Shown here: positions 1-22,501 of the stretch, piece after piece | Layout: every line of letters starts with the position of its first letter | How positions within the stretch are numbered: the first letter of the stretch is position 1 | NCBI GenBank assembly: GCA_026770025.1 | Contig: JAMXDE010000011.1 | Coordinates: forward strand, 1,674,001-1,738,000 | Source: Craspedostauros australis | Taxonomy: Eukaryota; Bacillariophyta; Bacillariophyceae; Mastogloiales; Achnanthaceae | Direction of reading: 5' to 3' | Length of the DNA: 64,000 bases | Translations under genes and position numbers: made by a program | The notes under the pieces: model-generated | Database searches by the model: none | What the model was told of the DNA's origin: nothing | The model's input: the letters and a program-made list of their open reading frames with translations, nothing else

Positions 1-131
1 GGACCACATACTCTGCCTGCTCTATCAGCTCTACCTGCTCCACTCATAGGATTGTACCACCAACAGCAACAGTCAGCAGCAGCAACAGCAACAGCAGCAG
101 TAGCAACAACATTAGCAACGACAAGAAAAGG

Positions 132-1538
132 ATGAACCACAACATGGATGCTGTCGCCAACACAAATACCAGCAGCGATCATGATCCAGACTTCAAGACT
201 TTCTGGAAACAACTCCATCAAAAAGAGCTGTCATCGAAGACTGTGTTCAATGTGCAGAGTCATCCAAGACAGCAGATCGACTGCTACAGTGTCAAACCCA
301 AGCCGATGGAACACTGGGACATGGCCATCGAAGCAGGATTCACTTTTGATGACTTGAAATCAATGGTGAAACAGCACAAGAACGTTGCTTTATCACCTCA
401 TGTTCTACTGAGCGATCCGTTCTACTGGGGCTGTGGGCAGATGCGCATTCGATCCCTGCATCTGAAATTCGACACCATTGACCAATTCGGAGAAGAAGAC
501 AAGCAAGCGATTCGCTTCATACTTCGATTGGCTGCCGAACACCCACCCAAATGTTCATTTGACCAATGCATCTGCTTGACTCAATACTTCGTGAAGATGA
601 AGCAGCTCCACGATATCCCTCTGGTGACACATCGTGTGTATTTGGATTCATGTGATCTTGTTGATTGCGACAAGCTCATGTTCAACATCTCCCAAAACTC
701 GAAATGGGTTAAGTTTAGTTTCTGCAAGCTCGCCAATGGCGGCGCTGATTTGTGCAGATGGCTGTCTCCAAACAATTGCAGCGTCACCGAAGTATGCTTT
801 TGCTGTACCCGTGTCACTTGCGATAGCTTGGCAAAGCTATTCCAGTCAAATAAGCGCATCAACAAGCTCAACATCAATTTCAATGGGAACTACAACGAAC
901 AACGAACCTACTCACAACAAGAAGTCGACCAGATCATCAAACTCCTTTCGGATGCATCACACCTGAAGAAGCTTGATATTTCCGTTTTTTGGATTGGGCC
1001 ATCGCGACAAGAGCAGATGATAATGTTCGACGCGTTGGTATCGCTTCTGGGAAACAAGGGCTTGTCATCTCTCAGTTACCATCACATTGGGACTCCTGGC
1101 ATGTTTGAAGTTCCGCCCGAGACCCTCTCGGCGCAAATGGAAGCACTTCAGCAAGCCTTGGAGCAGACTACCCAACTGACCCATCTCCGCATTTATCCAC
1201 GCCTGCCTGACGAACATGTCCATTCGTACAATGCGCTTGTTGGACGTATCTTGCGGCGAAATCATCGCAACAAGGTGAGAGCAGTGTTGTGTTCCCTTCC
1301 AACATGGTCGCGGCCACAGGCCCTGTTTGGAGAGATGCTGATGAGAACAAGCAAACATTGGGGTACAATGAATGCACTGGATCTAATGGGGACAATGGAT
1401 CCCATGAGCGAGGCTTTTGACGTTCTGCTGCAGGGCAGTGAGACATTGAAACAGGCGTGGGATGACAAGAGAGCAGATCGGCTCGTCCGAGTTGATGGTG
1501 TTTCTGCCCGCAATGCGAAAAGAAAGGCAAATCGATGA
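132..1538 (+). CDS. LRR-like protein (ribonuclease-inhibitor type), copy 1
   Basis: A 468-residue ORF without signal peptide or membrane segment. The middle part, about residues 165-300, has a 25-27-residue period: a short strand ending in Cys or Asn followed by a helix (HRVYLDSC, WVKFSFCKL, TEVCFCCT, KLNINFN, KKLDIS). This is the layout of ribonuclease-inhibitor-type leucine-rich repeats. The C-terminus is basic. A CAG/CAA-rich leader (about 60-115) precedes the ATG. Family knowledge suggests protein binding; the ligand is unknown. It is convergent with the monooxygenase, and the gene is single-exon as read. Other helical solenoids are possible, so the LRR assignment rests on periodicity. 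Confidence 0.75.
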   Translation: MNHNMDAVANTNTSSDHDPDFKTFWKQLHQKELSSKTVFNVQSHPRQQIDCYSVKPKPMEHWDMAIEAGFTFDDLKSMVKQHKNVALSPHVLLSDPFYWGCGQMRIRSLHLKFDTIDQFGEEDKQAIRFILRLAAEHPPKCSFDQCICLTQYFVKMKQLHDIPLVTHRVYLDSCDLVDCDKLMFNISQNSKWVKFSFCKLANGGADLCRWLSPNNCSVTEVCFCCTRVTCDSLAKLFQSNKRINKLNINFNGNYNEQRTYSQQEVDQIIKLLSDASHLKKLDISVFWIGPSRQEQMIMFDALVSLLGNKGLSSLSYHHIGTPGMFEVPPETLSAQMEALQQALEQTTQLTHLRIYPRLPDEHVHSYNALVGRILRRNHRNKVRAVLCSLPTWSRPQALFGEMLMRTSKHWGTMNALDLMGTMDPMSEAFDVLLQGSETLKQAWDDKRADRLVRVDGVSARNAKRKANR

Positions 1539-1860
1539 TTGATGCAATCCTGCATTGCCTTGGAGAACTCTGGTCGTTGAGAAATTAGAACAGCGCATGA
1601 AAGACAGTATTGATACTCTTGTGCATGTGAGTGTGTTGTTGTACGAGTAGGATGGAAAGGGGGGTTGATTGATTAATTGAGAGGTGTTCACTTGTGATTA
1701 TGATTGCGATTGTGATTGCGTGTTGTGGTTGACGAGAAGTATGGAATGTCTAGATCGCACGAGTATGGCTGGTCCATCAACAACAAGCGAAAGCCGTCCA
1801 CAGAACCTAGCTGCACCCACCGCGATTTCGCATCGCGGTTTCACACCGCTCTATACATTC
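1539..1860. other. Convergent spacer of the repeat unit, with a hairpin
   Basis: Spacer between the 3' ends of the LRR-like gene and the monooxygenase, repeated at 6027-6348 and 10515-10836. It has GATT-rich short repeats (1665-1725) and a perfect 8-base-pair inverted repeat with a 5-base loop at 1819-1839 (stem ACCGCGAT). I see no gene in it. Confidence 0.6.
1819..1839. repeat. Perfect inverted repeat (hairpin) in the convergent spacer
   Basis: Stem of 8 base pairs (ACCGCGAT/ATCGCGGT) around the loop TTCGC, about 21 bases beyond the monooxygenase stop. Also at 6307-6327 and 10795-10815. It could be a 3'-end or pausing element, but function is inferred only from position. Confidence 0.55.
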
Positions 1861-3407
1861 TCATCTCCTCGGAATGGCAGCATCCAGAAAGATCTTCTTC
1901 ACAACGCCCGTTTTGTCCACGATGAAGAAGAACACATCCCAGAACTTGGCCAACGGTCCCGACGAGGCCTCTAGGTATCCCAGCAGACCAGCTGTGGCCA
2001 TGATGTCCATGATGCCAGTGGTGGTAGACCATCGCTTGTCCTTGTATTCTGTCTGCAGAATATCTTCGAGGCTGTTCCCGCCATTGGCTTGTCCATCATA
2101 CTGCACATTGCATTGCCGAATGGCATTGGCCAGACAGTAGGCGTCTTGGATGGCCTGATTGGTGCCCTGTCCCAGGAACGGTAGCATGGCGTGCGCTACA
2201 TCACCGCAGACACTCAGGATGGCGACCTTGTCTGCGCAGGTGCTTCCATTGCGGTTGGGGTTGCGATTTGTGTTGGTGACCACCATCACCTTGGTCCATC
2301 GCGCAAAGGGATTGTGGAAGTAGATCCCGAACTCGAAGACATGGCCGGCATTGTCGATGAGTCGATCGATGATGGGCCTTGTGATGTGCGTGCGGATCTT
2401 GGCACCATCGATCTGCTGTCGCATCTGCTGCTGGATGCGCTCGGCCTCGGATGATACCTTCCAAGTGATGTTCTCATCATCCTTTCTGGCGGTGAGCTTG
2501 GAGAAGGGCAAGGCGTTGCGGAAGATGATGAAGCAGCTTCTGGTGTCGCGCTTGATGCCGCTGCTGGAGTTGCCGTTGTCATAGTTGCCGGTGAGGCAGA
2601 AGGCGCCGTCGCCAAAGTGTTGCTGCAAGACGGAATCTTGTGCAGTTTTGTTCATTCCGTCGTCGCTACTGCTGCTGCTACTACTATCGCTGTCCTCTTT
2701 GGCGACATCCCGGATGGCGTACCGGATGCGGATGCCAGAGTACACAAGCACCAAATTGCGTTGATTGTCTGATGGCGACCACGCATCGCCGTTGATGTAC
2801 TGCTTGACAACGCTGTTGACACCATCACAGCCCACCACCATATCGTACCAGTACGGCCCTTCTCTCGTTCCATCTTCGAATGCGAGATGGATGAACTCTC
2901 GCGCCTCCGTCTTTTGACATTCCACATTCACCACTTGCTTGCCAGATGCACGGGCGTCGTCTTCAACTCTTCCAGAAGCACCTCCTGCAACTCTCCTCGC
3001 ATGATGAAGTATGGTACGCCATGACCTCGCCGTCCTCCCGGATCAGCGCCTTTGTCGTGGCGTCACTCCACATCCATGATCATCTGTCTGAGATTGAAGT
3101 GCAGCAGCTGAAGCTCTTCGTTGGACGAGATCCAGTTGGTGGTCTTGGATCGCACGGTCGTCAACGGCAGCGCGGCATCGGCCACCGCACGCTGCAGGGA
3201 CGGAGAGATTTGCTTCAGCACCGCCATGCCGCCGTTGAGCTCCGCGCCCGCACCTGCAACAACGTCCAATTCTGGTCTTGCATCGAAGCATGTCACGTCG
3301 AAGCATGTCACGTCGAAGCATGTCACATCAATGTTGTGTGCATCGTTGCCGTTGTTGTTCTCGAAGGCATGTGCCAAGGAGAGGCCAGCGATGCCACCGC
3401 CGATCAC
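1861..3407 (-). pseudogene. FAD-dependent monooxygenase, frame-broken, copy 1
   Basis: Reads as an FAD monooxygenase of the p-hydroxybenzoate-hydroxylase/UbiH class spread over several frames. The Rossmann start (VIGGGIAGLSLAHAF) lies at 3407-3360 and that frame stops at 3063-3065. RGELQEVLLEEL lies near 2965-3000. The long frame 1861-2934 carries VGCDGVNSVV and the second FAD motif, GDVAHAMLPFLGQGTNQAIQDA. At least three frame changes are needed (around 3060, 3010 and 2955), and the GxGxxG frame has no ATG before an upstream stop. A single GT-AG intron does not reconcile the frames, since family motifs lie between the breaks. A 15-base repeat gives VTCFD three times (about 3290-3335). Confidence 0.75.
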
Positions 3408-3995
3408 AGTATTCTTCCGTTTTGGTTGGTGGTTCCCACTCCTCTCCCACTCTCATTGCTGTGGCTGCTTCTGCTTCGCTTCTGCGTTGGAGTGATGACA
3501 AGGATGGTGATGACAGTGAGTTCGTTGCCACCACCATGCACGCGATGCAGATGTCACCAATCATCCTCTTTTGATGCATCAACCACGTCGTTGGTGTCAT
3601 TGCTGCCATTGGTGCCAATGTTGTGATTCTTCTGGTTGTGGCTGTCTCTGTGGTTGCGCGATCAATGAGCGAGGAACCAAGTCAACCAGCCGACAGTGTT
3701 CGAAGTCTCTCTAGAAATAGAGAGAGAGGGAGAGACGGAGCATTGGCATGCTCTGTGAATAGATACTTGATGGCAGCGGTGATCATCATGTGAGCGTTGC
3801 GGTTGTGACGATCTGTATCAGTATTCTACGGCGATGTCTGCAGCACCACCCATGGCCATCATCATCGCCACAGAGTTCGCAATGATTAGGTGAGGCGAGA
3901 TGAGTCCTGGATACGTTTGTTGTCGATTGAAACACGAGCAGTGACACCATCTTCGTCGTCGTCATCCTCTCGACAAAACACGAGAAACGCCTCTG

Positions 3996-4285
3996 ATGTC
4001 CACGGAAGAAGTCATCGTGGTGGGCTCCTCGCGCCGCAGAGGACTCGTCACATCGTGGATCCGCTCACCGCAGTCGTTCGATGACATCCAACTGCCGAAG
4101 TACATAGTATGCATGCGTATGGCATAATGGTTGACTCCCCCAAGACCATCACAGAGGGATATGCCTCCTCATATTACACAACTATGATATCACATGAAGA
4201 GGCACAACTCCGCAGCATGACCAAGTTGGGCATCATCGAAAGTCGTATCGTGCGAGCGAGCGAGCTTGCCAGCTTCGGATCATGA
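3996..4285 (+). pseudogene. Coding-like remnant in the spacer, two overlapping small ORFs
   Basis: ORF 3996-4127 (43 residues, MSTEEVIVVGSSRRRG...) overlaps ORF 4127-4285 (52 residues, MVDSPKTITEGYASS...) through the sequence TAATG. Their amino-acid composition looks like real protein rather than random frame. The overlap suggests one former reading frame broken by a one-base shift. I do not recognise it. Repeated at 8484-8773 and 12972-13261; absent from copy 4, where homology ends earlier. Confidence 0.35.
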
Positions 4286-4427
4286 TGTGGCTGTCCACGG
4301 TCGTACTACACCATCGCATAGCATACAATACCATACCATACCAGACACAGTGGTGGAACTACGCAAGTCCACGCAGGCGTGTTGACTGACGACGCGTTGC
4401 TTTGTGATCAATGTACAGGACCATGAA

Positions 4428-4484
4428 ATGGAGGACAGCAACCTTGAGCAGATGAGCTCACAATCACCATCCAAGCGCAACTGA
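4428..4484 (+). other. Small conserved ORF upstream of the LRR-like gene
   Basis: Eighteen codons, MEDSNLEQMSSQSPSKRN, ending 135 bases before the LRR-like ATG. The diverged flank of copy 4 keeps the same ORF and stop at 13384-13440 with two residue changes (MEDIKLEQ...) and one synonymous change, although sequence just before it has diverged and changed length. It could be an upstream ORF in the leader or the last exon of an unseen gene. Also at 8916-8972. Confidence 0.45.
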
Positions 4485-4619
4485 TTTGGGACCACATACT
4501 CTGCCTGCTCTATCAGCTCTACCTGCTCCACTCATAGGATTGTACCACCAACAGCAACAGTCAGCAGCAGCAACAGCAACAGCAGCAGTAGCAACAACAT
4601 TAGCAACGACAAGAAAAGG

Positions 4620-6026
4620 ATGAACCACAACATGGATGCTGTCGCCAACACAAATACCAGCAGCGATCATGATCCAGACTTCAAGACTTTCTGGAAACAA
4701 CTCCATCAAAAAGAGCTGTCATCGAAGACTGTGTTCAATGTGCAGAGTCATCCAAGACAGCAGATCGACTGCTACAGTGTCAAACCCAAGCCGATGGAAC
4801 ACTGGGACATGGCCATCGAAGCAGGATTCACTTTTGATGACTTGAAATCAATGGTGAAACAGCACAAGAACGTTGCTTTATCACCTCATGTTCTACTGAG
4901 CGATCCGTTCTACTGGGGCTGTGGGCAGATGCGCATTCGATCCCTGCATCTGAAATTCGACACCATTGACCAATTCGGAGAAGAAGACAAGCAAGCGATT
5001 CGCTTCATACTTCGATTGGCTGCCGAACACCCACCCAAATGTTCATTTGACCAATGCATCTGCTTGACTCAATACTTCGTGAAGATGAAGCAGCTCCACG
5101 ATATCCCTCTGGTGACACATCGTGTGTATTTGGATTCATGTGATCTTGTTGATTGCGACAAGCTCATGTTCAACATCTCCCAAAACTCGAAATGGGTTAA
5201 GTTTAGTTTCTGCAAGCTCGCCAATGGCGGCGCTGATTTGTGCAGATGGCTGTCTCCAAACAATTGCAGCGTCACCGAAGTATGCTTTTGCTGTACCCGT
5301 GTCACTTGCGATAGCTTGGCAAAGCTATTCCAGTCAAATAAGCGCATCAACAAGCTCAACATCAATTTCAATGGGAACTACAACGAACAACGAACCTACT
5401 CACAACAAGAAGTCGACCAGATCATCAAACTCCTTTCGGATGCATCACACCTGAAGAAGCTTGATATTTCCGTTTTTTGGATTGGGCCATCGCGACAAGA
5501 GCAGATGATAATGTTCGACGCGTTGGTATCGCTTCTGGGAAACAAGGGCTTGTCATCTCTCAGTTACCATCACATTGGGACTCCTGGCATGTTTGAAGTT
5601 CCGCCCGAGACCCTCTCGGCGCAAATGGAAGCACTTCAGCAAGCCTTGGAGCAGACTACCCAACTGACCCATCTCCGCATTTATCCACGCCTGCCTGACG
5701 AACATGTCCATTCGTACAATGCGCTTGTTGGACGTATCTTGCGGCGAAATCATCGCAACAAGGTGAGAGCAGTGTTGTGTTCCCTTCCAACATGGTCGCG
5801 GCCACAGGCCCTGTTTGGAGAGATGCTGATGAGAACAAGCAAACATTGGGGTACAATGAATGCACTGGATCTAATGGGGACAATGGATCCCATGAGCGAG
5901 GCTTTTGACGTTCTGCTGCAGGGCAGTGAGACATTGAAACAGGCGTGGGATGACAAGAGAGCAGATCGGCTCGTCCGAGTTGATGGTGTTTCTGCCCGCA
6001 ATGCGAAAAGAAAGGCAAATCGATGA
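4620..6026 (+). CDS. LRR-like protein, copy 2
   Basis: Encodes the same 468 residues as the gene at 132, with the same leader and flanks. Here the complete upstream region is visible. A small conserved ORF ends 135 bases before the start (4428-4484), and the leader from about 4549 is built of CAA and CAG triplets. Confidence 0.75.
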   Translation: MNHNMDAVANTNTSSDHDPDFKTFWKQLHQKELSSKTVFNVQSHPRQQIDCYSVKPKPMEHWDMAIEAGFTFDDLKSMVKQHKNVALSPHVLLSDPFYWGCGQMRIRSLHLKFDTIDQFGEEDKQAIRFILRLAAEHPPKCSFDQCICLTQYFVKMKQLHDIPLVTHRVYLDSCDLVDCDKLMFNISQNSKWVKFSFCKLANGGADLCRWLSPNNCSVTEVCFCCTRVTCDSLAKLFQSNKRINKLNINFNGNYNEQRTYSQQEVDQIIKLLSDASHLKKLDISVFWIGPSRQEQMIMFDALVSLLGNKGLSSLSYHHIGTPGMFEVPPETLSAQMEALQQALEQTTQLTHLRIYPRLPDEHVHSYNALVGRILRRNHRNKVRAVLCSLPTWSRPQALFGEMLMRTSKHWGTMNALDLMGTMDPMSEAFDVLLQGSETLKQAWDDKRADRLVRVDGVSARNAKRKANR

Positions 6027-6348
6027 TTGATGCAATCCTGCATTGCCTTGGAGAACTCTGGTCGTTGAGAAATTAGAACAGCGCATGAAAGACAGTATTG
6101 ATACTCTTGTGCATGTGAGTGTGTTGTTGTACGAGTAGGATGGAAAGGGGGGTTGATTGATTAATTGAGAGGTGTTCACTTGTGATTATGATTGCGATTG
6201 TGATTGCGTGTTGTGGTTGACGAGAAGTATGGAATGTCTAGATCGCACGAGTATGGCTGGTCCATCAACAACAAGCGAAAGCCGTCCACAGAACCTAGCT
6301 GCACCCACCGCGATTTCGCATCGCGGTTTCACACCGCTCTATACATTC

Positions 6349-7895
6349 TCATCTCCTCGGAATGGCAGCATCCAGAAAGATCTTCTTCACAACGCCCGTT
6401 TTGTCCACGATGAAGAAGAACACATCCCAGAACTTGGCCAACGGTCCCGACGAGGCCTCTAGGTATCCCAGCAGACCAGCTGTGGCCATGATGTCCATGA
6501 TGCCAGTGGTGGTAGACCATCGCTTGTCCTTGTATTCTGTCTGCAGAATATCTTCGAGGCTGTTCCCGCCATTGGCTTGTCCATCATACTGCACATTGCA
6601 TTGCCGAATGGCATTGGCCAGACAGTAGGCGTCTTGGATGGCCTGATTGGTGCCCTGTCCCAGGAACGGTAGCATGGCGTGCGCTACATCACCGCAGACA
6701 CTCAGGATGGCGACCTTGTCTGCGCAGGTGCTTCCATTGCGGTTGGGGTTGCGATTTGTGTTGGTGACCACCATCACCTTGGTCCATCGCGCAAAGGGAT
6801 TGTGGAAGTAGATCCCGAACTCGAAGACATGGCCGGCATTGTCGATGAGTCGATCGATGATGGGCCTTGTGATGTGCGTGCGGATCTTGGCACCATCGAT
6901 CTGCTGTCGCATCTGCTGCTGGATGCGCTCGGCCTCGGATGATACCTTCCAAGTGATGTTCTCATCATCCTTTCTGGCGGTGAGCTTGGAGAAGGGCAAG
7001 GCGTTGCGGAAGATGATGAAGCAGCTTCTGGTGTCGCGCTTGATGCCGCTGCTGGAGTTGCCGTTGTCATAGTTGCCGGTGAGGCAGAAGGCGCCGTCGC
7101 CAAAGTGTTGCTGCAAGACGGAATCTTGTGCAGTTTTGTTCATTCCGTCGTCGCTACTGCTGCTGCTACTACTATCGCTGTCCTCTTTGGCGACATCCCG
7201 GATGGCGTACCGGATGCGGATGCCAGAGTACACAAGCACCAAATTGCGTTGATTGTCTGATGGCGACCACGCATCGCCGTTGATGTACTGCTTGACAACG
7301 CTGTTGACACCATCACAGCCCACCACCATATCGTACCAGTACGGCCCTTCTCTCGTTCCATCTTCGAATGCGAGATGGATGAACTCTCGCGCCTCCGTCT
7401 TTTGACATTCCACATTCACCACTTGCTTGCCAGATGCACGGGCGTCGTCTTCAACTCTTCCAGAAGCACCTCCTGCAACTCTCCTCGCATGATGAAGTAT
7501 GGTACGCCATGACCTCGCCGTCCTCCCGGATCAGCGCCTTTGTCGTGGCGTCACTCCACATCCATGATCATCTGTCTGAGATTGAAGTGCAGCAGCTGAA
7601 GCTCTTCGTTGGACGAGATCCAGTTGGTGGTCTTGGATCGCACGGTCGTCAACGGCAGCGCGGCATCGGCCACCGCACGCTGCAGGGACGGAGAGATTTG
7701 CTTCAGCACCGCCATGCCGCCGTTGAGCTCCGCGCCCGCACCTGCAACAACGTCCAATTCTGGTCTTGCATCGAAGCATGTCACGTCGAAGCATGTCACG
7801 TCGAAGCATGTCACATCAATGTTGTGTGCATCGTTGCCGTTGTTGTTCTCGAAGGCATGTGCCAAGGAGAGGCCAGCGATGCCACCGCCGATCAC
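6349..7895 (-). pseudogene. FAD-dependent monooxygenase, frame-broken, copy 2
   Basis: Same sequence and same frame breaks as at 1861-3407. Because every copy shares them, the breaks predate the triplication. Random sequencing error is therefore an unlikely cause unless one error was copied by the assembler. Confidence 0.75.
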
Positions 7896-9107
7896 AGTAT
7901 TCTTCCGTTTTGGTTGGTGGTTCCCACTCCTCTCCCACTCTCATTGCTGTGGCTGCTTCTGCTTCGCTTCTGCGTTGGAGTGATGACAAGGATGGTGATG
8001 ACAGTGAGTTCGTTGCCACCACCATGCACGCGATGCAGATGTCACCAATCATCCTCTTTTGATGCATCAACCACGTCGTTGGTGTCATTGCTGCCATTGG
8101 TGCCAATGTTGTGATTCTTCTGGTTGTGGCTGTCTCTGTGGTTGCGCGATCAATGAGCGAGGAACCAAGTCAACCAGCCGACAGTGTTCGAAGTCTCTCT
8201 AGAAATAGAGAGAGAGGGAGAGACGGAGCATTGGCATGCTCTGTGAATAGATACTTGATGGCAGCGGTGATCATCATGTGAGCGTTGCGGTTGTGACGAT
8301 CTGTATCAGTATTCTACGGCGATGTCTGCAGCACCACCCATGGCCATCATCATCGCCACAGAGTTCGCAATGATTAGGTGAGGCGAGATGAGTCCTGGAT
8401 ACGTTTGTTGTCGATTGAAACACGAGCAGTGACACCATCTTCGTCGTCGTCATCCTCTCGACAAAACACGAGAAACGCCTCTGATGTCCACGGAAGAAGT
8501 CATCGTGGTGGGCTCCTCGCGCCGCAGAGGACTCGTCACATCGTGGATCCGCTCACCGCAGTCGTTCGATGACATCCAACTGCCGAAGTACATAGTATGC
8601 ATGCGTATGGCATAATGGTTGACTCCCCCAAGACCATCACAGAGGGATATGCCTCCTCATATTACACAACTATGATATCACATGAAGAGGCACAACTCCG
8701 CAGCATGACCAAGTTGGGCATCATCGAAAGTCGTATCGTGCGAGCGAGCGAGCTTGCCAGCTTCGGATCATGATGTGGCTGTCCACGGTCGTACTACACC
8801 ATCGCATAGCATACAATACCATACCATACCAGACACAGTGGTGGAACTACGCAAGTCCACGCAGGCGTGTTGACTGACGACGCGTTGCTTTGTGATCAAT
8901 GTACAGGACCATGAAATGGAGGACAGCAACCTTGAGCAGATGAGCTCACAATCACCATCCAAGCGCAACTGATTTGGGACCACATACTCTGCCTGCTCTA
9001 TCAGCTCTACCTGCTCCACTCATAGGATTGTACCACCAACAGCAACAGTCAGCAGCAGCAACAGCAACAGCAGCAGTAGCAACAACATTAGCAACGACAA
9101 GAAAAGG

Positions 9108-10514
9108 ATGAACCACAACATGGATGCTGTCGCCAACACAAATACCAGCAGCGATCATGATCCAGACTTCAAGACTTTCTGGAAACAACTCCATCAAAAA
9201 GAGCTGTCATCGAAGACTGTGTTCAATGTGCAGAGTCATCCAAGACAGCAGATCGACTGCTACAGTGTCAAACCCAAGCCGATGGAACACTGGGACATGG
9301 CCATCGAAGCAGGATTCACTTTTGATGACTTGAAATCAATGGTGAAACAGCACAAGAACGTTGCTTTATCACCTCATGTTCTACTGAGCGATCCGTTCTA
9401 CTGGGGCTGTGGGCAGATGCGCATTCGATCCCTGCATCTGAAATTCGACACCATTGACCAATTCGGAGAAGAAGACAAGCAAGCGATTCGCTTCATACTT
9501 CGATTGGCTGCCGAACACCCACCCAAATGTTCATTTGACCAATGCATCTGCTTGACTCAATACTTCGTGAAGATGAAGCAGCTCCACGATATCCCTCTGG
9601 TGACACATCGTGTGTATTTGGATTCATGTGATCTTGTTGATTGCGACAAGCTCATGTTCAACATCTCCCAAAACTCGAAATGGGTTAAGTTTAGTTTCTG
9701 CAAGCTCGCCAATGGCGGCGCTGATTTGTGCAGATGGCTGTCTCCAAACAATTGCAGCGTCACCGAAGTATGCTTTTGCTGTACCCGTGTCACTTGCGAT
9801 AGCTTGGCAAAGCTATTCCAGTCAAATAAGCGCATCAACAAGCTCAACATCAATTTCAATGGGAACTACAACGAACAACGAACCTACTCACAACAAGAAG
9901 TCGACCAGATCATCAAACTCCTTTCGGATGCATCACACCTGAAGAAGCTTGATATTTCCGTTTTTTGGATTGGGCCATCGCGACAAGAGCAGATGATAAT
10001 GTTCGACGCGTTGGTATCGCTTCTGGGAAACAAGGGCTTGTCATCTCTCAGTTACCATCACATTGGGACTCCTGGCATGTTTGAAGTTCCGCCCGAGACC
10101 CTCTCGGCGCAAATGGAAGCACTTCAGCAAGCCTTGGAGCAGACTACCCAACTGACCCATCTCCGCATTTATCCACGCCTGCCTGACGAACATGTCCATT
10201 CGTACAATGCGCTTGTTGGACGTATCTTGCGGCGAAATCATCGCAACAAGGTGAGAGCAGTGTTGTGTTCCCTTCCAACATGGTCGCGGCCACAGGCCCT
10301 GTTTGGAGAGATGCTGATGAGAACAAGCAAACATTGGGGTACAATGAATGCACTGGATCTAATGGGGACAATGGATCCCATGAGCGAGGCTTTTGACGTT
10401 CTGCTGCAGGGCAGTGAGACATTGAAACAGGCGTGGGATGACAAGAGAGCAGATCGGCTCGTCCGAGTTGATGGTGTTTCTGCCCGCAATGCGAAAAGAA
10501 AGGCAAATCGATGA
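9108..10514 (+). CDS. LRR-like protein, copy 3
   Basis: Third gene with the same 468-residue product. Nothing distinguishes it from copies 1 and 2 in coding or flanking sequence. Confidence 0.75.
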   Translation: MNHNMDAVANTNTSSDHDPDFKTFWKQLHQKELSSKTVFNVQSHPRQQIDCYSVKPKPMEHWDMAIEAGFTFDDLKSMVKQHKNVALSPHVLLSDPFYWGCGQMRIRSLHLKFDTIDQFGEEDKQAIRFILRLAAEHPPKCSFDQCICLTQYFVKMKQLHDIPLVTHRVYLDSCDLVDCDKLMFNISQNSKWVKFSFCKLANGGADLCRWLSPNNCSVTEVCFCCTRVTCDSLAKLFQSNKRINKLNINFNGNYNEQRTYSQQEVDQIIKLLSDASHLKKLDISVFWIGPSRQEQMIMFDALVSLLGNKGLSSLSYHHIGTPGMFEVPPETLSAQMEALQQALEQTTQLTHLRIYPRLPDEHVHSYNALVGRILRRNHRNKVRAVLCSLPTWSRPQALFGEMLMRTSKHWGTMNALDLMGTMDPMSEAFDVLLQGSETLKQAWDDKRADRLVRVDGVSARNAKRKANR

Positions 10515-10836
10515 TTGATGCAATCCTGCATTGCCTTGGAGAACTCTGGTCGTTGAGAAATTAGAACAGCGCATGAAAGACAGTATTGATACTCTTGTGC
10601 ATGTGAGTGTGTTGTTGTACGAGTAGGATGGAAAGGGGGGTTGATTGATTAATTGAGAGGTGTTCACTTGTGATTATGATTGCGATTGTGATTGCGTGTT
10701 GTGGTTGACGAGAAGTATGGAATGTCTAGATCGCACGAGTATGGCTGGTCCATCAACAACAAGCGAAAGCCGTCCACAGAACCTAGCTGCACCCACCGCG
10801 ATTTCGCATCGCGGTTTCACACCGCTCTATACATTC

Positions 10837-12383
10837 TCATCTCCTCGGAATGGCAGCATCCAGAAAGATCTTCTTCACAACGCCCGTTTTGTCCACGATG
10901 AAGAAGAACACATCCCAGAACTTGGCCAACGGTCCCGACGAGGCCTCTAGGTATCCCAGCAGACCAGCTGTGGCCATGATGTCCATGATGCCAGTGGTGG
11001 TAGACCATCGCTTGTCCTTGTATTCTGTCTGCAGAATATCTTCGAGGCTGTTCCCGCCATTGGCTTGTCCATCATACTGCACATTGCATTGCCGAATGGC
11101 ATTGGCCAGACAGTAGGCGTCTTGGATGGCCTGATTGGTGCCCTGTCCCAGGAACGGTAGCATGGCGTGCGCTACATCACCGCAGACACTCAGGATGGCG
11201 ACCTTGTCTGCGCAGGTGCTTCCATTGCGGTTGGGGTTGCGATTTGTGTTGGTGACCACCATCACCTTGGTCCATCGCGCAAAGGGATTGTGGAAGTAGA
11301 TCCCGAACTCGAAGACATGGCCGGCATTGTCGATGAGTCGATCGATGATGGGCCTTGTGATGTGCGTGCGGATCTTGGCACCATCGATCTGCTGTCGCAT
11401 CTGCTGCTGGATGCGCTCGGCCTCGGATGATACCTTCCAAGTGATGTTCTCATCATCCTTTCTGGCGGTGAGCTTGGAGAAGGGCAAGGCGTTGCGGAAG
11501 ATGATGAAGCAGCTTCTGGTGTCGCGCTTGATGCCGCTGCTGGAGTTGCCGTTGTCATAGTTGCCGGTGAGGCAGAAGGCGCCGTCGCCAAAGTGTTGCT
11601 GCAAGACGGAATCTTGTGCAGTTTTGTTCATTCCGTCGTCGCTACTGCTGCTGCTACTACTATCGCTGTCCTCTTTGGCGACATCCCGGATGGCGTACCG
11701 GATGCGGATGCCAGAGTACACAAGCACCAAATTGCGTTGATTGTCTGATGGCGACCACGCATCGCCGTTGATGTACTGCTTGACAACGCTGTTGACACCA
11801 TCACAGCCCACCACCATATCGTACCAGTACGGCCCTTCTCTCGTTCCATCTTCGAATGCGAGATGGATGAACTCTCGCGCCTCCGTCTTTTGACATTCCA
11901 CATTCACCACTTGCTTGCCAGATGCACGGGCGTCGTCTTCAACTCTTCCAGAAGCACCTCCTGCAACTCTCCTCGCATGATGAAGTATGGTACGCCATGA
12001 CCTCGCCGTCCTCCCGGATCAGCGCCTTTGTCGTGGCGTCACTCCACATCCATGATCATCTGTCTGAGATTGAAGTGCAGCAGCTGAAGCTCTTCGTTGG
12101 ACGAGATCCAGTTGGTGGTCTTGGATCGCACGGTCGTCAACGGCAGCGCGGCATCGGCCACCGCACGCTGCAGGGACGGAGAGATTTGCTTCAGCACCGC
12201 CATGCCGCCGTTGAGCTCCGCGCCCGCACCTGCAACAACGTCCAATTCTGGTCTTGCATCGAAGCATGTCACGTCGAAGCATGTCACGTCGAAGCATGTC
12301 ACATCAATGTTGTGTGCATCGTTGCCGTTGTTGTTCTCGAAGGCATGTGCCAAGGAGAGGCCAGCGATGCCACCGCCGATCAC
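10837..12383 (-). pseudogene. FAD-dependent monooxygenase, frame-broken, copy 3
   Basis: Same sequence and frame breaks as copies 1 and 2. The longest open stretch, 10837-11910 (357 residues), could still give a C-terminal fragment with the substrate-side FAD motif, but it lacks the N-terminal dinucleotide-binding fold. Confidence 0.75.
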
Positions 12384-13383
12384 AGTATTCTTCCGTTTTG
12401 GTTGGTGGTTCCCACTCCTCTCCCACTCTCATTGCTGTGGCTGCTTCTGCTTCGCTTCTGCGTTGGAGTGATGACAAGGATGGTGATGACAGTGAGTTCG
12501 TTGCCACCACCATGCACGCGATGCAGATGTCACCAATCATCCTCTTTTGATGCATCAACCACGTCGTTGGTGTCATTGCTGCCATTGGTGCCAATGTTGT
12601 GATTCTTCTGGTTGTGGCTGTCTCTGTGGTTGCGCGATCAATGAGCGAGGAACCAAGTCAACCAGCCGACAGTGTTCGAAGTCTCTCTAGAAATAGAGAG
12701 AGAGGGAGAGACGGAGCATTGGCATGCTCTGTGAATAGATACTTGATGGCAGCGGTGATCATCATGTGAGCGTTGCGGTTGTGACGATCTGTATCAGTAT
12801 TCTACGGCGATGTCTGCAGCACCACCCATGGCCATCATCATCGCCACAGAGTTCGCAATGATTAGGTGAGGCGAGATGAGTCCTGGATACGTTTGTTGTC
12901 GATTGAAACACGAGCAGTGACACCATCTTCGTCGTCGTCATCCTCTCGACAAAACACGAGAAACGCCTCTGATGTCCACGGAAGAAGTCATCGTGGTGGG
13001 CTCCTCGCGCCGCAGAGGACTCGTCACATCGTGGATCCGCTCACCGCAGTCGTTCGATGACATCCAACTGCCGAAGTACATAGTATGCATGCGTATGGCA
13101 TAATGGTTGACTCCCCCAAGACCATCACAGAGGGATATGCCTCCTCATATTACACAACTATGATATCACATGAAGAGGCACAACTCCGCAGCATGACCAA
13201 GTTGGGCATCATCGAAAGTCGTATCGTGCGAGCGAGCGAGCTTGCCAGCTTCGGATCATGATGTGGCTGTCCACGGTCGTACTACACCATCGCATAGCAT
13301 ACAATACCATACCACACCATACACTGTGGTGGAATTGCACAAGTCCATGCAACTGCTTCATGGTCAACACGCATGATCATGAA

Positions 13384-13440
13384 ATGGAGGACATCAAGCT
13401 CGAGCAGATGAGCTCACAATCGCCATCCAAGCGCAACTGA
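13384..13440 (+). other. Small conserved ORF upstream of LRR copy 4
   Basis: Diverged counterpart of 4428-4484, with the same length and the same C-terminal peptide QMSSQSPSKRN. Here the frame stays open back to an ATG at 13258, giving 60 residues, but the extra part does not match the other copies. Confidence 0.45.
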
Positions 13441-13590
13441 TTTGGGACCACATACTCTGCCTGCTCTATCAGCTCTACCTGCTCTACTCATACGATTGTA
13501 CCACCAACAGCAACAATCAGCAGAAGCAGCAACTATCAGCAACAATCATCATCAGTAACAATCAGCAACAACAGCGACAACAACAAAAGG

Positions 13591-14910
13591 ATGAACCACA
13601 ACATGGATGCTGTCGCCAACATCAATACCAACAGCGATCATGATCCAGACTTCAAGATTTTCTGGAAAAAACTCTATGGAAAAGAGCCGTCACCGAAGAC
13701 CGTGTTCAATGTGCAGAGTTATCCAAGACAGTATTTCGGCTGCTACAGTGCCACACCCAAGCGGATGGAATACTGGGACATGGCCATCGAAGCAGGATTC
13801 ACCTTTGCTGACTTGAAATCGATGGTGAAGCAGCACAAGCACGTTGCTGTATCACCTCATGTTCTACTGAACGATTCGTTTCGCTGGGGCTACGGGCGGA
13901 TGTGCATTCGATCCCTGTATCTGGAATTCGGTCGCCATGGCCAAATCGGAGAAGAAGTCAAGCAAGTGATTCGCTTCATACTTCGATTGGCTGCCAAACA
14001 CCCACTCAAATCTTCATCCGACGAAGGCATCAGCTTGACTCATGACTTCATGAAGATGAAGCAGCTCCACGATATCCCTCTTGTGACACATCGTGTGTAT
14101 TTGTGGTCATGTGATCTTGTTGATTGCGACAAGCTCATGTTCAACATCTCACAAAACTCGAAATGGGTTGTGTTAGACAAATGTGAGCTCGCCAATGGGG
14201 GTGCTGATTTGTGCAGATGGCTGTCTCCAAACAATTGCAGCATCACCGAAGTATCCTTCGCATGCACCTTTATCACTTGTGATAACTTGGCAAAGCTATT
14301 CCAGTCAAACAAGCGCATCAACAAGCTCAACATCACATCCCTTGCGAGCTTCGGCGCCCGGGAAATCTACTCACAACAAGAAATCGACCAGATCATCAAA
14401 CTCCTTTCAGACGCATCACACCTGAAGAAGCTCAAGGTTGTCCGCATCTGGGGCAGAATATCGCGACCAGGGCAGATGATGAGGTTCGACACTTTGATAT
14501 CCCTCCTGGGAAACAAGAGCTTGTCATCTCTCACATGCTTGGACGACCCGAATCCCAACGAGTTTGAAGTTCCGCCCGAGACCCTCTCGGCACAAATGGA
14601 AGCACTTGAGAAAGCCTTGGAGCAGAATACCCAACTCACCAATCTCCACGTTTCTTCATGCACGCCTGACCAACATGTCCATTGGTGCGATGCGCTTGTT
14701 GAACGTACGTTGCGGCGAAATCATCGCAACAAGGTGAGAGCAGTTCTGTGTTCCCTTCCAACATGGTCGCGGCCACAGGCCCTGTTTGGGCAGATGGTGA
14801 TGAGAACAAGCAAACGTCGTGGTACAATGCATGCAATGGGTCCCATGGATCCCACGAACGAGACTTTCCATCTTCTGTTGCAGGGCAGTGAGATGTTGAA
14901 GCGGACATGA
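13591..14910 (+). CDS. LRR-like protein, diverged copy 4, C-terminally truncated
   Basis: A 439-residue paralogue of the gene at 132, about 72% identical by hand count. Differences fall mainly on the predicted strands: VKFSFCK versus VVLDKCE, KLNINFN versus KLNITSL, KKLDISV versus KKLKVVR. The helices that follow are nearly unchanged (LAKLFQSNKRIN, IIKLLSDASHL). The ORF ends at TGA where copies 1-3 have TGG (Gln-Ala-Trp-Asp). The downstream sequence still resembles the tail of the others, so the last ~28 residues were lost through a nonsense change. The leader is also CAA/CAG-rich but differs in length. Confidence 0.75.
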   Translation: MNHNMDAVANINTNSDHDPDFKIFWKKLYGKEPSPKTVFNVQSYPRQYFGCYSATPKRMEYWDMAIEAGFTFADLKSMVKQHKHVAVSPHVLLNDSFRWGYGRMCIRSLYLEFGRHGQIGEEVKQVIRFILRLAAKHPLKSSSDEGISLTHDFMKMKQLHDIPLVTHRVYLWSCDLVDCDKLMFNISQNSKWVVLDKCELANGGADLCRWLSPNNCSITEVSFACTFITCDNLAKLFQSNKRINKLNITSLASFGAREIYSQQEIDQIIKLLSDASHLKKLKVVRIWGRISRPGQMMRFDTLISLLGNKSLSSLTCLDDPNPNEFEVPPETLSAQMEALEKALEQNTQLTNLHVSSCTPDQHVHWCDALVERTLRRNHRNKVRAVLCSLPTWSRPQALFGQMVMRTSKRRGTMHAMGPMDPTNETFHLLLQGSEMLKRT

Positions 14911-15155
14911 GATGACAAGAGAGCGGATCGGCTCGTCCGAGTTGATGGTGCTTCTGCTTGTTATGTGGAAAAGAAAGACACATCGATGGTTGATGCGATC
15001 CGACATAGCTTTGGAATACTCTGTTCGTCGAGTAATTAGAACGTCATATGAAGATAGTATTGATACTCTGGTGCATGTGAGTGTGTTGTTGTACTACTAT
15101 GAGTAGGATGGAACAAGGGAGATGGCTGGGCGATTGTGATTGCGTGTTGTGGTTG

Positions 15156-16179
15156 GTGGCATCATCGATCTGCTGTCGCATCTGCTGCTGGATGCGCTCG
15201 GCCTCGGATGATACCTTCCAAGTGATGTTCTCATCATCCTTTCTGGCGGTGAGCTTGGAGAAGGGCAAGGCGTTGCGGAAGATGATGAAGCAGCTTCTGG
15301 TGTCGCGCTTGATGCCGCTGCTGGAGTTGCCGTTGTCATAGTTGCCGTTGTCATAGTTGCCGTTGTCATAGTTGCCGGTGAGGCAGAAGGCGCCGTTGCC
15401 AAAGTGTTGCTGCAAGACGGAATCTTGTGCAGTTTTGTTCATTCCGTCGTCGCTGCTGCTGCTGCTACTACTATCGCTGTCCTCTTTGGCGACATCCCGG
15501 ATGGCGTACCGGATGCGGATGCCAGAGTACACAAGCACCAAATTGCGTTGATTGTCTGATGGCGACCACGCATCGCCGTTGATGTACTGCTTGACAACGC
15601 TGTTGACACCATCACAGCCCACCACCATATCGTACCAGTACGGCCCTTCTCTCGTTCCATCTTCGAATGCGAGATGGATGAACTCTCCCGCCTCCGTCTT
15701 TTGACATTCCACATTCACCACTTGCTTGCCAGATGCACGGGCGTCGTCTTCAGCTCTTCCAGAAGCACCTCCTGCAACTCTCCTCGCATGATGGAGTATG
15801 GTACTCCATGACTTCGCCGTCCTCCCGGATCAGCGCCTTTGTCGTGGCGTCACTCCACATCCATGATCATCTGTCTGAGATTGAAGTGCAGCAGCTGAAG
15901 CTCTTCGTTGGACGAGATCCAGTTGGTGGTCTTGGATCGCACGGTCGTCAACGGCAGCGCGGCATCGGCCACCGCACGCTGCAGGGACGGAGAGATTTGC
16001 TTCAGCACCGCCATGCCGCCGTTGAGCTCCGCGCCCGCACCTGCAACGACGTCAAATTCTGGTCTTGCATCGAAGCACGTCACATCGAAGCATGTCACAT
16101 CAATGTTGTGTGCATCGTTACCGTTGTTGTTCTCGAAGGCATGCGCCAAGGAGAGGCCAGCGATGCCACCGCCGATCAC
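15156..16179 (-). pseudogene. FAD-dependent monooxygenase remnant, copy 4 (3' half deleted)
   Basis: N-terminal and middle parts of the same gene. The frame with VIGGGIAG starts at 16179, and the second frame runs from 15721. After the Gln-Gln-Ile-Asp stretch, homology stops at about 15156, so the second FAD motif is gone. The same frame breaks as in copies 1-3 are present. It differs from copy 1 by about 14 substitutions per kilobase (hand count) and by whole 15-base repeat units: VTCFD twice instead of three times, and DNGNY units added near 15335-15380. Confidence 0.75.
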
Positions 16180-18128: not shown

Positions 18129-19574
18129 TCATGGATTGATCCTCTTGACACGCAGCTTGGTTCCGATGTACTTGAATGTCATGAAGTACGAAAGCTCGCC
18201 TTCCTCCACAACCTCGAACTCGTACTTTGACAGCACCTTCGGCATCACGGAGTACATCTCCGCCTTGGCCAAAGTCTGGCCGACGCAGTTGCGGTTGCCA
18301 TGAGCGAACGTCATCATGCTCTTAAGCATGTCGTTCGTCGCGGTCTCCCAGCGCTTCGGGCTGAACTCGTCAGGGTTTTCGAACACGTGCTCACTGCGGT
18401 GCGGCAGCATGTGCGGGAGGAACACGTTGGAGCCGCTTGGAAGCTCCACCTTCGTGTTGCTGGTCTCATCGAGGAGGACGAAGTCGCGATTAAGCTTCCG
18501 GCCTGATCCCAACGCGATGACGGGGGCAATTCGGTTGGACTCGGTGATGACGTGTCTCATGCTCTCATTGGCCGCCTCAGCATCATCGCCGAGCAACGAT
18601 TTCTGCAGGTGCTTCATCGTCTCGGGATGCTTGGCCAACAACGTCACCGTGCTGGCCATGGTGTAACCCGTGGTATCGAAACCGCCAATGAGGAAAAGGA
18701 CGACGTCCGCGATCTTCTCGAGCTCAGTGTGATAGTGCGGGTTGCTGTCGATGAGCTTGATGACGGTGTTGTTGGGAGACTTGTTGGGGTTGTTCTGGTA
18801 GGCTCGCAGGATCTTTCTGCCGAATTCGGTGACGGCGTCTCCACATCGGCGGGCCTCGCGCACGGAGGGGATGAATGCTCCAAAGATCTTGCGCAGTGGG
18901 CTGAGGGACTGAGTGTAGGCGTACTCGCGGTACGCAATCAGGGAGTCGGCCGAGAACTGGTAGTACTCTTCATCGGTGGAGTTGTACTCGAAGCTGGCCT
19001 CCATGACGGAGTGGAAGACGAGCTTGGGGAACTCGTGGCCAGGATCGAAGGTCTTGTCGGTATCGGCGAGAGGCTCGAGGACCTCGTCGATGAACTTCTG
19101 CGCGTACTTGTTGCAGATGCTGTTCATGCGGCTGATCTCGCTGGATGCGAAGGCTGGCATGACACCCTTACGGAATGGCTTGCATCGTGGATCCTCAAAA
19201 GTGCGCGTGATGAGGGAGGGACACCCAACTGCGCCGTCGAACGACTTGTACAGAGCCCTGGACTTGTCCGTGGTCTTGTCCAAGAAGATCTCGCGCTGCG
19301 CTTTGGCATCACCGACGATGTACAGGCCACCTGGCATGGGGATGTTGAGCTTGAAGATAGATGCGCCGGTGGCCTTTGCCGTGTTGAGCAAGAACCATGG
19401 CGAATCGCCTCCCATCATGGATGACATGGTCTCGAACATGCCAACCTTTGCATTCGGAGGGGCATTCTTCGGTTGCGGCTTGTGGACGATGGTGTACAGC
19501 GCGAACGTGATAGCTGCGACGAGGACAGCCACGATGATGGAAGTGTCGGACATGGAAGAGATGAGGTCGCTCAT
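18129..19574 (-). CDS. Cytochrome P450 monooxygenase
   Basis: 481 residues, the usual P450 length, uninterrupted. An N-terminal membrane anchor (IIVAVLVAAITFALYTIV, about 13-30) points to the ER. Family motifs appear in order: I-helix oxygen-binding GGFDTT (about 290), ExxR as ESNR (about 345), FSPKRW in the PERF region, and the heme loop FAHGNRNCVG (423-432) with Cys430 as heme ligand. All catalytic signatures are intact. Substrate and CYP family cannot be read from the sequence. The start is the first ATG of the frame and precedes the hydrophobic anchor. Confidence 0.93.
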   Translation of the reverse strand: MSDLISSMSDTSIIVAVLVAAITFALYTIVHKPQPKNAPPNAKVGMFETMSSMMGGDSPWFLLNTAKATGASIFKLNIPMPGGLYIVGDAKAQREIFLDKTTDKSRALYKSFDGAVGCPSLITRTFEDPRCKPFRKGVMPAFASSEISRMNSICNKYAQKFIDEVLEPLADTDKTFDPGHEFPKLVFHSVMEASFEYNSTDEEYYQFSADSLIAYREYAYTQSLSPLRKIFGAFIPSVREARRCGDAVTEFGRKILRAYQNNPNKSPNNTVIKLIDSNPHYHTELEKIADVVLFLIGGFDTTGYTMASTVTLLAKHPETMKHLQKSLLGDDAEAANESMRHVITESNRIAPVIALGSGRKLNRDFVLLDETSNTKVELPSGSNVFLPHMLPHRSEHVFENPDEFSPKRWETATNDMLKSMMTFAHGNRNCVGQTLAKAEMYSVMPKVLSKYEFEVVEEGELSYFMTFKYIGTKLRVKRINP

Positions 19575-21394: not shown

Positions 21395-22501
21395 ATGACA
21401 CTCCCACCACGAACAGCGCTGTCTCGCTGTCTTCTTGCGTTGGCCGCAGCCGCAGTGTTCATTGCATCAAAGGAATCGAACGCGTTTCCTTTTCAGGCGA
21501 CGATACCGTGTATGCATCAACATGAGGAATCGTCTACGTATCCGAGATTCAAGGAGTTTCAAGTACGAAGAGGCGGCCGGCATTCCAATCGACACCGTGT
21601 GCTTTCACGCAGTCTGGAACTGGGCCAACCAACGATGACAGTGACCATGAGGATGGCATCATCGTCGCAAGATCTTCCATCGTTCAGTGCATACGACGAT
21701 GACGAAGAACGATATGAGCAGCAGTATGAGAATGAGCAACAGCAAGAGGACCAACAACACGAGGAGCACCAACGCTCCATGCATTGGGTTCTGTTGGTGG
21801 ACGACGAAGAGGCCATTCGAAAAGCCGTGGGCCAGCTACTTTACGACTGCGGGTACCAGGTCACAGCATGCGCTGATGCCTTCACCGCAATGAAAGTCGT
21901 CACGAGCCGATCCTCCTCGGATGCGGGCAATGCCAACCACAACCAACTCCCGGACTGCATCATCAGCGACGTGCGCATGCCGCAAATGGACGGCATTCAA
22001 TTCTTGCAACAAATCCGGTCGAATCCGCAATTGAATGCCATCCCCGTCGTTCTGCTGACCGCCAAGAGCATGACGCAGGATCGCATCGCGGGATACGACT
22101 ACGGTGCCGATGCGTACATCACGAAACCGTTCGATCCAGATGAGCTCATCGCCATCGTGGACAACGTCATCTATCGCAGAAGTCTGCTGAGCGGATCGGA
22201 TCTTAACGTGGAAGATCTGCAGTCAGATGTTGCGGAAATGAAGAAGCTGCTGTTGCAGCAAGGTGGCAGTGGCATCGGGAATGGGTGGGTGGAGCAGACC
22301 GACGTCTTCTTGACGGAAAACGAGCAAGCTATATTGGACTACCTGTGCGAGGGATACAGCAACAAGGAAGTTGCTGGCATGACCTACATCTCCGTGCGGA
22401 GGGTGGAGCAACTGTTGACGCAAATGTATCGCAAGACCAAAACCAAAAATCGAATGGAACTGGTTCGATGGGCGCTGTCGACGGGCAATTCGCAAGCATA
22501 G
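21395..22501 (+). CDS. Plastid-targeted NarL/Ycf29-type response regulator
   Basis: 368 residues. Residues 1-30 form a signal peptide ending SNA|FPF, the heterokont plastid cleavage context, followed by a basic Ser/Arg-rich transit region. The receiver domain (130-260) has the acidic pair Asp136/Asp137, phospho-acceptor Asp192 (SDVRMPQMDG), Thr222 (LLTAK) and Lys244 (ITKPFD), so it should be phosphorylatable. The C-terminal LuxR/NarL helix-turn-helix (306-362) contains LTENEQAILDYLCEGYSNKEVA. Ycf29 of red-lineage plastid genomes has this layout. Here the gene is nuclear, which implies transfer from the plastid or the endosymbiont, and plastid transcription is the likely target. No histidine kinase is encoded in this window. 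Confidence 0.9.
   Translation: MTLPPRTALSRCLLALAAAAVFIASKESNAFPFQATIPCMHQHEESSTYPRFKEFQVRRGGRHSNRHRVLSRSLELGQPTMTVTMRMASSSQDLPSFSAYDDDEERYEQQYENEQQQEDQQHEEHQRSMHWVLLVDDEEAIRKAVGQLLYDCGYQVTACADAFTAMKVVTSRSSSDAGNANHNQLPDCIISDVRMPQMDGIQFLQQIRSNPQLNAIPVVLLTAKSMTQDRIAGYDYGADAYITKPFDPDELIAIVDNVIYRRSLLSGSDLNVEDLQSDVAEMKKLLLQQGGSGIGNGWVEQTDVFLTENEQAILDYLCEGYSNKEVAGMTYISVRRVEQLLTQMYRKTKTKNRMELVRWALSTGNSQA

Follow-up and report, generated by a model that had tools for sequence, protein, structure and literature searches.

The tandem leucine-rich repeat (LRR) genes at one locus of the diatom Craspedostauros australis raise the question of whether their products vary on a single face, and of what has made them vary. 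The locus lies in a stretch of 64,000 nucleotides, hereafter the window (contig JAMXDE010000011.1; C9:1674001-1738000 of a genome assembly of 74.8 Mb in 90 contigs). Four LRR genes are encoded on its forward strand, as open reading frames (ORFs) where an initial annotation of the window had placed them: copy 1 at 132-1538, copy 2 at 4620-6026 and copy 3 at 9108-10514, each a single ORF for the same 468 residues, and copy 4 at 13591-14910, which stops earlier (439 residues) and shares 72% identity with copy 1. The annotation had proposed that copies 1 and 4 differ mainly in the short strands of their repeats, and had taken this pattern, together with the tandem duplication, as a sign of a recognition-gene cluster under diversifying selection. 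Our analysis confirmed that the pattern of variable strands and conserved helices is real and general across a genome-wide family, and diversifying selection on the strand-motif positions is well supported; the cluster itself had a different history.

With copies 1-3 counted as one sequence, the alignment of copies 1 and 4 shows 122 differences in 439 residues, in agreement with the roughly 120 claimed for the 468-residue product against copy 4. When the differences were sorted by the secondary structure predicted with AlphaFold2 (AF2), changes fell on 22 of 47 residues in strands, 20 of 120 in helices and 41 of 124 in loops (strand versus helix, Fisher p = 1.2e-4), and the four strand segments cited earlier as examples were all present in the alignment. 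The helices, described as almost unchanged, were indeed conserved, yet with that many differences they are not unchanged. The repeats occupy residues 105-360 (444-1211 for copy 1 and, by alignment to it, 13903-14670 for copy 4, both on the forward strand) and carry nine LxLxx strand motifs, which start at copy 1 residues 109, 147, 169, 193, 221, 246, 281, 314 and 352; the repeat starts are thus spaced by 22-38 residues, and a period of about 26 residues was not recovered. Counted from the first L in each motif, positions +1, +3 and +4 made up the exposed set (27 positions) and positions 0 and +2 the buried set (18); the motif starts were set on the LxLxx pattern after the entropy profile was known, so this choice was not blind. 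Between copies 1 and 4, 21 of the 27 exposed but only 4 of the 18 buried positions had changed.

Variability and selection across the family

A tblastn search of the diatom's own genome returned at least 91 single-frame LRR paralogues, 67-100% identical; the number is a minimum, because scoring covered 91 of the 125 candidates from a first look. Five sets of identical sequences, one of them copies 1-3, reduced the 91 to 85 distinct sequences, and three short rows were also dropped for the codon model and the residue signatures (82 sequences). Stop codons were masked, as X in the entropy alignment and as gaps in the comparison of synonymous (dS) and nonsynonymous (dN) divergence. Mean entropy was 2.32 bits at the exposed positions, 0.37 at the buried ones and 0.82 elsewhere. 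Hypervariable positions, defined as those with at least 2 bits, comprised 19 of 47 strand residues, 1 of 120 helix residues (p = 2e-11) and 19 of 124 loop residues. The proportion of nonsynonymous differences (pN) at exposed positions was 0.434, while sets of 27 positions picked at random 10,000 times within residues 101-380 averaged 0.161 and reached at most 0.277. Among 21 frame shifts of the position set, the unshifted frame gave the highest entropy and the highest pN, the latter being 0.208 and 0.236 one residue to either side. Diversity at codon positions 1, 2 and 3 of the exposed codons was 0.455, 0.449 and 0.316. The 82 genes carry 80 distinct 27-residue signatures, and two genes differ on average at 69% of the exposed, 13% of the buried and 27% of the other positions.

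Selection was assessed by the ratio of pN to its synonymous counterpart (pS) in each position class, by a per-site codon-rate grid and by mapping onto predicted secondary structure, and these analyses upheld the earlier claim of diversifying selection on the presumed ligand-facing strands. For 42 disjoint nearest pairs, drawn with pairs of dS < 0.01 left out, pN/pS was 1.64 (interval 1.40-1.93) at the exposed codons, 0.53 (0.39-0.71) at the buried codons and 0.60 (0.54-0.67) for the helices; all codons that belong to neither the exposed nor the buried set gave 0.80 (0.75-0.86). Set against the pS of the whole gene, exposed pN gave a ratio of 2.39 (2.17-2.64). The variable sites thus did not give a ratio below 1, and counting without transition bias, as was done here, tends to understate the ratio. 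Whole-gene dN/dS was near 0.8 (pairwise medians). In the codon-rate grid, allowing nonsynonymous rates to exceed synonymous ones raised twice the log-likelihood difference (2dlnL) by 843 on a single tree, and by 262, 129 and 394 when each of three segments had a separate tree. Exposed sites had a mean synonymous rate (alpha) of 1.31 and a mean nonsynonymous rate (beta) of 4.46, with a posterior above 0.95 at 19 of the 27. The helices are partly at the surface too and nevertheless stay conserved, so exposure by itself does not account for the pattern.

Array structure and exchange between copies

The first three LRR genes of the window lie in three head-to-tail units of 4488 bp on the forward strand (1-13444; units at 1-4488, 4489-8976 and 8977-13444), followed by a fourth, divergent unit. 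The first two units are identical, and the third deviates only over its final ~130 bp, from about 13315, which lowers its whole-unit match to 99.2%. Each unit holds an LRR gene and, tail-to-tail with it on the reverse strand, a gene resembling flavin adenine dinucleotide (FAD) monooxygenases (PF01494, 33.3 bits). The FAD-like gene of the first unit spans 1861-3407 in two ORF pieces (1861-2934, which holds the PF01494 match, and 3063-3407), the same gene recurs at 6349-7895 and 10837-12383, and its frame is broken by a stop and a frame change, possibly at an intron. Downstream of copy 4 lies a remnant of it (15044-16179, reverse strand; pieces 15044-15721 and 15850-16179) that is shortened on its 3' side.

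The two sides of this fourth unit differ sharply in their distance from the third. Copies 1 and 4 of the LRR gene are separated by a dS of 0.20 and a dN of 0.16, close to the family medians of 0.223 and 0.181, and when 12 segments were compared, the nearest relative of copy 1 or copy 4 was mostly another paralogue each time. On the FAD side, the sequence agrees with copy 3 at 551 of 555 aligned bases over 15157-15741, apart from 45 gap columns; beyond 15741, identity is 97.3, 100, 95.6 and 89% in turn and is lost after about 16434. The step in identity falls at 15085-15157, a sharp junction at which ~600 bp of copy 3 are missing, with 74-89% identity (150-column windows) on the LRR side and 99% on the FAD side. 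Since the LRR dS is typical of the family while the adjoining part of the FAD remnant is 99% identical, copy 4 is most plausibly a mosaic in which an old LRR gene adjoins a young flank, and not a recent duplicate. The cluster in the window therefore did not simply diversify in place, as the initial annotation had suggested; its first three copies are identical and its fourth is an old family member on a young flank.

In the genome as a whole, the 91 genes occupy 17 contigs, where 25 head-to-tail arrays hold 78 of them, all facing the same way inside an array, while the other 13 stand alone. A FAD-like piece lies tail-to-tail within 3.2 kb of 62 of the 91. Among 114 FAD-like matches, many of which are pieces of one gene, four cover at least query residues 2-356 without a stop, and three of these four lie in the window. 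The FAD-like genes beside LRR genes look broken or fragmentary in most places; six-frame matching would likewise split an intron-bearing gene. Two sets of identical LRR genes join genes in matching order near the ends of two contigs (C13 near 1841165-1850946 and C35 near 654122-663901), possibly as unmerged haplotypes or as a segmental duplication near chromosome ends.

Sixty-nine of the 91 matches are free of stops. In 19 of the 22 others the first stop falls at residues 428-452 of their own protein, near the end of copy 4, and the remaining three have it at residues 375, 375 and 392, so no stop precedes residue 375 in any of the 91. Behind the stops at 428-452 (19 of 91, copy 4 included) similar sequence runs on as a variable tail. 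When the substitutions of each gene were placed at random over 370 codons, 0.95 of the 85 genes was expected to be stop-free; all 85 were, with observed stops scored in the first 350. The reading frames of the family are kept open, subject to a search that favours intact copies. The family tree is star-like, with 74% of its length in terminal branches. Used as a query, the N-terminal 105 residues returned 105 matches, which include additional partial copies as well as more distant relatives at C25:255286 (L106), C35:618325 (L108) and, more weakly, C2:77591 (L107). These three have long open frames, are LRR-like by eye, carry the family's N-terminal motif WD.AIE.GF.F and could serve to root the family; the relatives on C25 and C2 sit on contigs that hold none of the 91 genes. 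No viral or prokaryotic relatives were confirmed among 27 IMG/VR and 30 GTDB contig pattern matches.

Rampant recombination was considered as the source of the low linkage among sites, a view that was tempered by linkage and tract tests. At third codon positions the mean squared correlation between sites (r2) below 50 bp was 0.050 versus a permuted maximum of 0.043, and the rank correlation of r2 with distance, -0.041, lay inside the shuffled range (minimum -0.059). An identical tract that was significant by an approximate formula was found in 12 of 3232 pairs, after 89 of 3321 pairs more than 85% identical at variable sites had been omitted; the median tract was 138.5 bp, and six of the twelve fell within one contig.

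Predicted fold, related systems and competing explanations

The family carries the LRR strand motif LxLxx(N/C/T) with a following helix: nine motifs have conserved positions 0 and +2, and the sixth position is a conserved C or T in repeats 3-5 only. An AF2 model built with the two window sequences places strands at eight of the nine motifs and alternates strands with helices. When this weak model was searched with Foldseek, the matches below E 0.001 were NOD2 (two chains) and a chain of the mouse SCMC complex, the top rank being an LRR protein at E 1.1e-4 with a query TM-score (TMq) of 0.43, from a model with a predicted local distance difference test (pLDDT) score of 60. The LRRs of NLRC4, leiomodin/tropomodulin and Skp2 (E 0.007) followed. 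From the motif and from what is generally known of LRR proteins, we infer that the variable positions lie on one concave face. A profile and Pfam scan took in 55 of the 91 members, and at E <= 0.1 NB-ARC/NACHT, ROC, COR and F-box domains had no match in them; the family may hold an unrecognised F-box-like fold. NB-ARC has only two matches in the whole genome, neither at a location of the LRR family, and by sequence the 55-member profile found no solved relative at E <= 0.1. A hydropathy scan detected no hydrophobic N-terminus (highest 10-residue value in the first 40 residues 0.71) and a family median of 0.98 for the 19-residue maximum, which suggests that the proteins are probably soluble and intracellular.

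These properties place the family with known LRR recognition families that have a hypervariable face. In plant and animal nucleotide-binding LRR receptors (NLRs), the LRR domain forms an arc with hypervariable exposed strand positions, and the genes are clustered. The diatom family shares the clustering and the hypervariable strand positions, probably on an arc too, and has the NLR proteins NOD2 and NLRC4 among its nearest solved folds, but it lacks an NB-ARC match in the members scanned. In jawless fish, variable lymphocyte receptors are put together somatically from repeats and are presented on the outside of the cell. They too appear to use an LRR module with diversity on the strand face, whereas the present family consists of whole genes without a hydrophobic N-terminus. 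The nearest precedent is the brown-algal ROCO family (LRR-ROC-COR), described as candidate immune receptors with selected positions on the concave LRR side (PMC11378527; an earlier Ectocarpus report is cited there). Both occur in algae, both have positively selected strand positions, concave here on the strength of the motif, and both may form a recognition repertoire. The two differ in that ROCO repeats are described as separate exons that are shuffled (PMC11378527), while the family studied here has no ROC-COR match, keeps its LRRs in one open frame, has most copies in head-to-tail arrays and draws its diversity from whole-gene copying with some conversion. In diatoms, LRR-containing proteins are listed among the main tandem duplicates of Seminavis robusta, a likeness by description, with selection on strand positions not reported in the available text (PMC7335047), and LRR-containing secreted proteins are mentioned for Nitzschia putrida (PMC9054022). 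Among the titles and abstract openings listed by searches of the open literature, none described a comparable LRR-only family from a microalga.

We consider it probable that the genes make up a germline-encoded set of LRR-only proteins for recognition, soluble and intracellular, whose ligand and immune role are presumed, an immune role being the most likely use. Each copy would fold as a short arc of the ribonuclease inhibitor (RI) type, with a conserved N-terminal region of ~100 residues preceding its nine or so repeats. Helices and buried core would be held while the outward strand residues, and loops close to them, would be pushed to diverge, and each copy might thereby offer a different binding surface. 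The ligands may most likely be fast-changing intracellular molecules such as proteins of viruses, bacteria or parasites, and the conserved N-terminal and helical side would contact a shared downstream partner. The family may have spread by tandem duplication of an LRR-plus-passenger unit, movement between arrays and occasional ectopic gene conversion, with the passenger FAD gene decaying in most places. More tentatively, the genome might hold a standing germline repertoire of some 80 distinct faces for binding, intracellular and LRR-only. It would amount to an innate system that resembles antibodies but has neither nucleotide-binding nor kinase domains, and it could be maintained as arrays turn over, copies convert ectopically and positive selection acts strongly on one face of the protein.

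Several observations weigh against this reading. The 14 closest pairs gave an exposed pN/pS of only 1.18 on the same codons (1.96 with the pS of the whole gene as denominator); taken by themselves, the youngest changes are therefore not decisive for selection. Over all pairs the ratio was not maximal in the unshifted frame (1.47 versus 1.61 at a shift of -2 and 1.39 at -3), and the ratio alone therefore does not single out the frame. In the codon-rate grid 2 of the 27 exposed sites looked purifying, and the 108 sites flagged (19 of 27 exposed, 1 of 18 buried and 88 of 395 others) overstate the true count because the site model assumes a tree while copies exchange. Candidates picked by similarity favour intact copies. 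In the two LRR proteins of the window no Pfam family rose above cut-off, the best LRR model reaching 13.3 bits for copy 1 (cut-off 27) and none matching copy 4; among the 55 members the LRR model matched most often, R13L1/DRL21, found 12 at E <= 0.1, the lowest E being 0.012. AF2 confidence was low for the model built with two sequences (pLDDT 51.5 for the whole protein and 59.8 for residues 100-410), and many unrelated barrel enzymes stood lower in the Foldseek ranking. The highest 19-residue hydropathy of any member, 1.85, is above the usual level of a membrane span.

The selection evidence would equally fit a face diversified for non-immune recognition, of mating partners or of self/non-self cues, or as a repertoire of substrate adaptors that selects proteins, whether foreign or endogenous, for degradation; we regard this as a minor though real possibility. 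Expanded F-box/LRR families serve as substrate adaptors in nematodes and plants. The family resembles them as a large intracellular family with a variable substrate face and a constant partner side, and Skp2 is among its matched folds, but the F-box itself was not matched in the 55 members scanned. A role in mating is favoured by Pseudo-nitzschia multistriata, in which two LRR receptor-like kinases are among 11 genes regulated during sex with Ka:Ks > 1 (PMC5485032). The lack of a hydrophobic N-terminus argues against a surface receptor for such cues, and 85 distinct sequences in one genome would seem to exceed what a mating system needs. Relaxed constraint, under which the exposed residues of decaying duplicates drift while folding holds the core, agrees with the whole-gene dN/dS near 0.8, the decayed look of most linked FAD genes and the ratio of 1.18 in the closest pairs. 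We find it improbable, as pooled exposed pN/pS exceeds 1 with an interval that excludes 1, by a count that tends to understate it, the partly exposed helices stay at 0.60, and frames remain open in 85 genes versus 0.95 expected.

Targeted mutagenesis, like that of diversity-generating retroelements (DGRs) or deaminases, could in principle write the variable codons. Variation is greatest at codon positions 1 and 2, a pyrimidine third base occurs in 72% of hypervariable codons (residues 101-380) and about 52% elsewhere, and pS is raised at exposed codons (0.295 versus 0.185), where codons with several changes may inflate it and lower the ratio. However, the synonymous diversity of conserved codons was 0.169 and 0.182 at one and two codons from a hypervariable one (20 and 9 codons) and 0.111, 0.174 and 0.147 at three to four, five to eight and nine or more; with this flat profile there is no local mutation peak, and local hypermutation is an unlikely source of the variable codons. 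At residues 194, 252 and 315 the third base is mostly fixed as G or A, and a writer that targets A would alter A there, which leaves mutagenesis very improbable. An assembly or alignment artefact behind the contrast of copies 1 and 4 might be suspected from the exact identity of copies 1-3 and of the end genes of C13 and C35, which could be unmerged haplotypes or assembly repeats. It is scarcely credible, since the pattern rests on 85 distinct sequences, with copies 1-3 as one, and segments of copy 4 are common to many family members elsewhere.

To our knowledge, little is known of how single-celled algae recognise viruses, bacteria and parasites. The family supplies named genes and 27 named positions for probing which copies bind foreign proteins, and it opens the question of whether copy content might predict the susceptibility of a strain. 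If our preferred reading of a recognition family is true, diversification of an LRR face can arise in proteins that lack the NB-ARC, kinase or ROC-COR parts of the LRR systems known in plants, animals and brown algae.

Neighbouring genes and the algal host

Beyond the array, the next recognised gene is a 480-residue ORF with a cytochrome P450 match (18129-19574, reverse strand). Further on, 21395-22501 of the forward strand encodes a 368-residue protein that combines a response-regulator receiver domain with a helix-turn-helix (HTH) of LuxR type. Its start resembles a secondary-plastid targeting signal, hydrophobic and then ...NAFPF, and the protein may be a nuclear-encoded Ycf29-like regulator. 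That the cluster belongs to an alga, as the initial annotation had it, was borne out by 61 matches to the chlorophyll-binding family in the genome. For one of these light-harvesting proteins, the best solved relatives were multi-domain LHCI chains (9vfj), followed by an LI818-clade fucoxanthin chlorophyll a/c protein.

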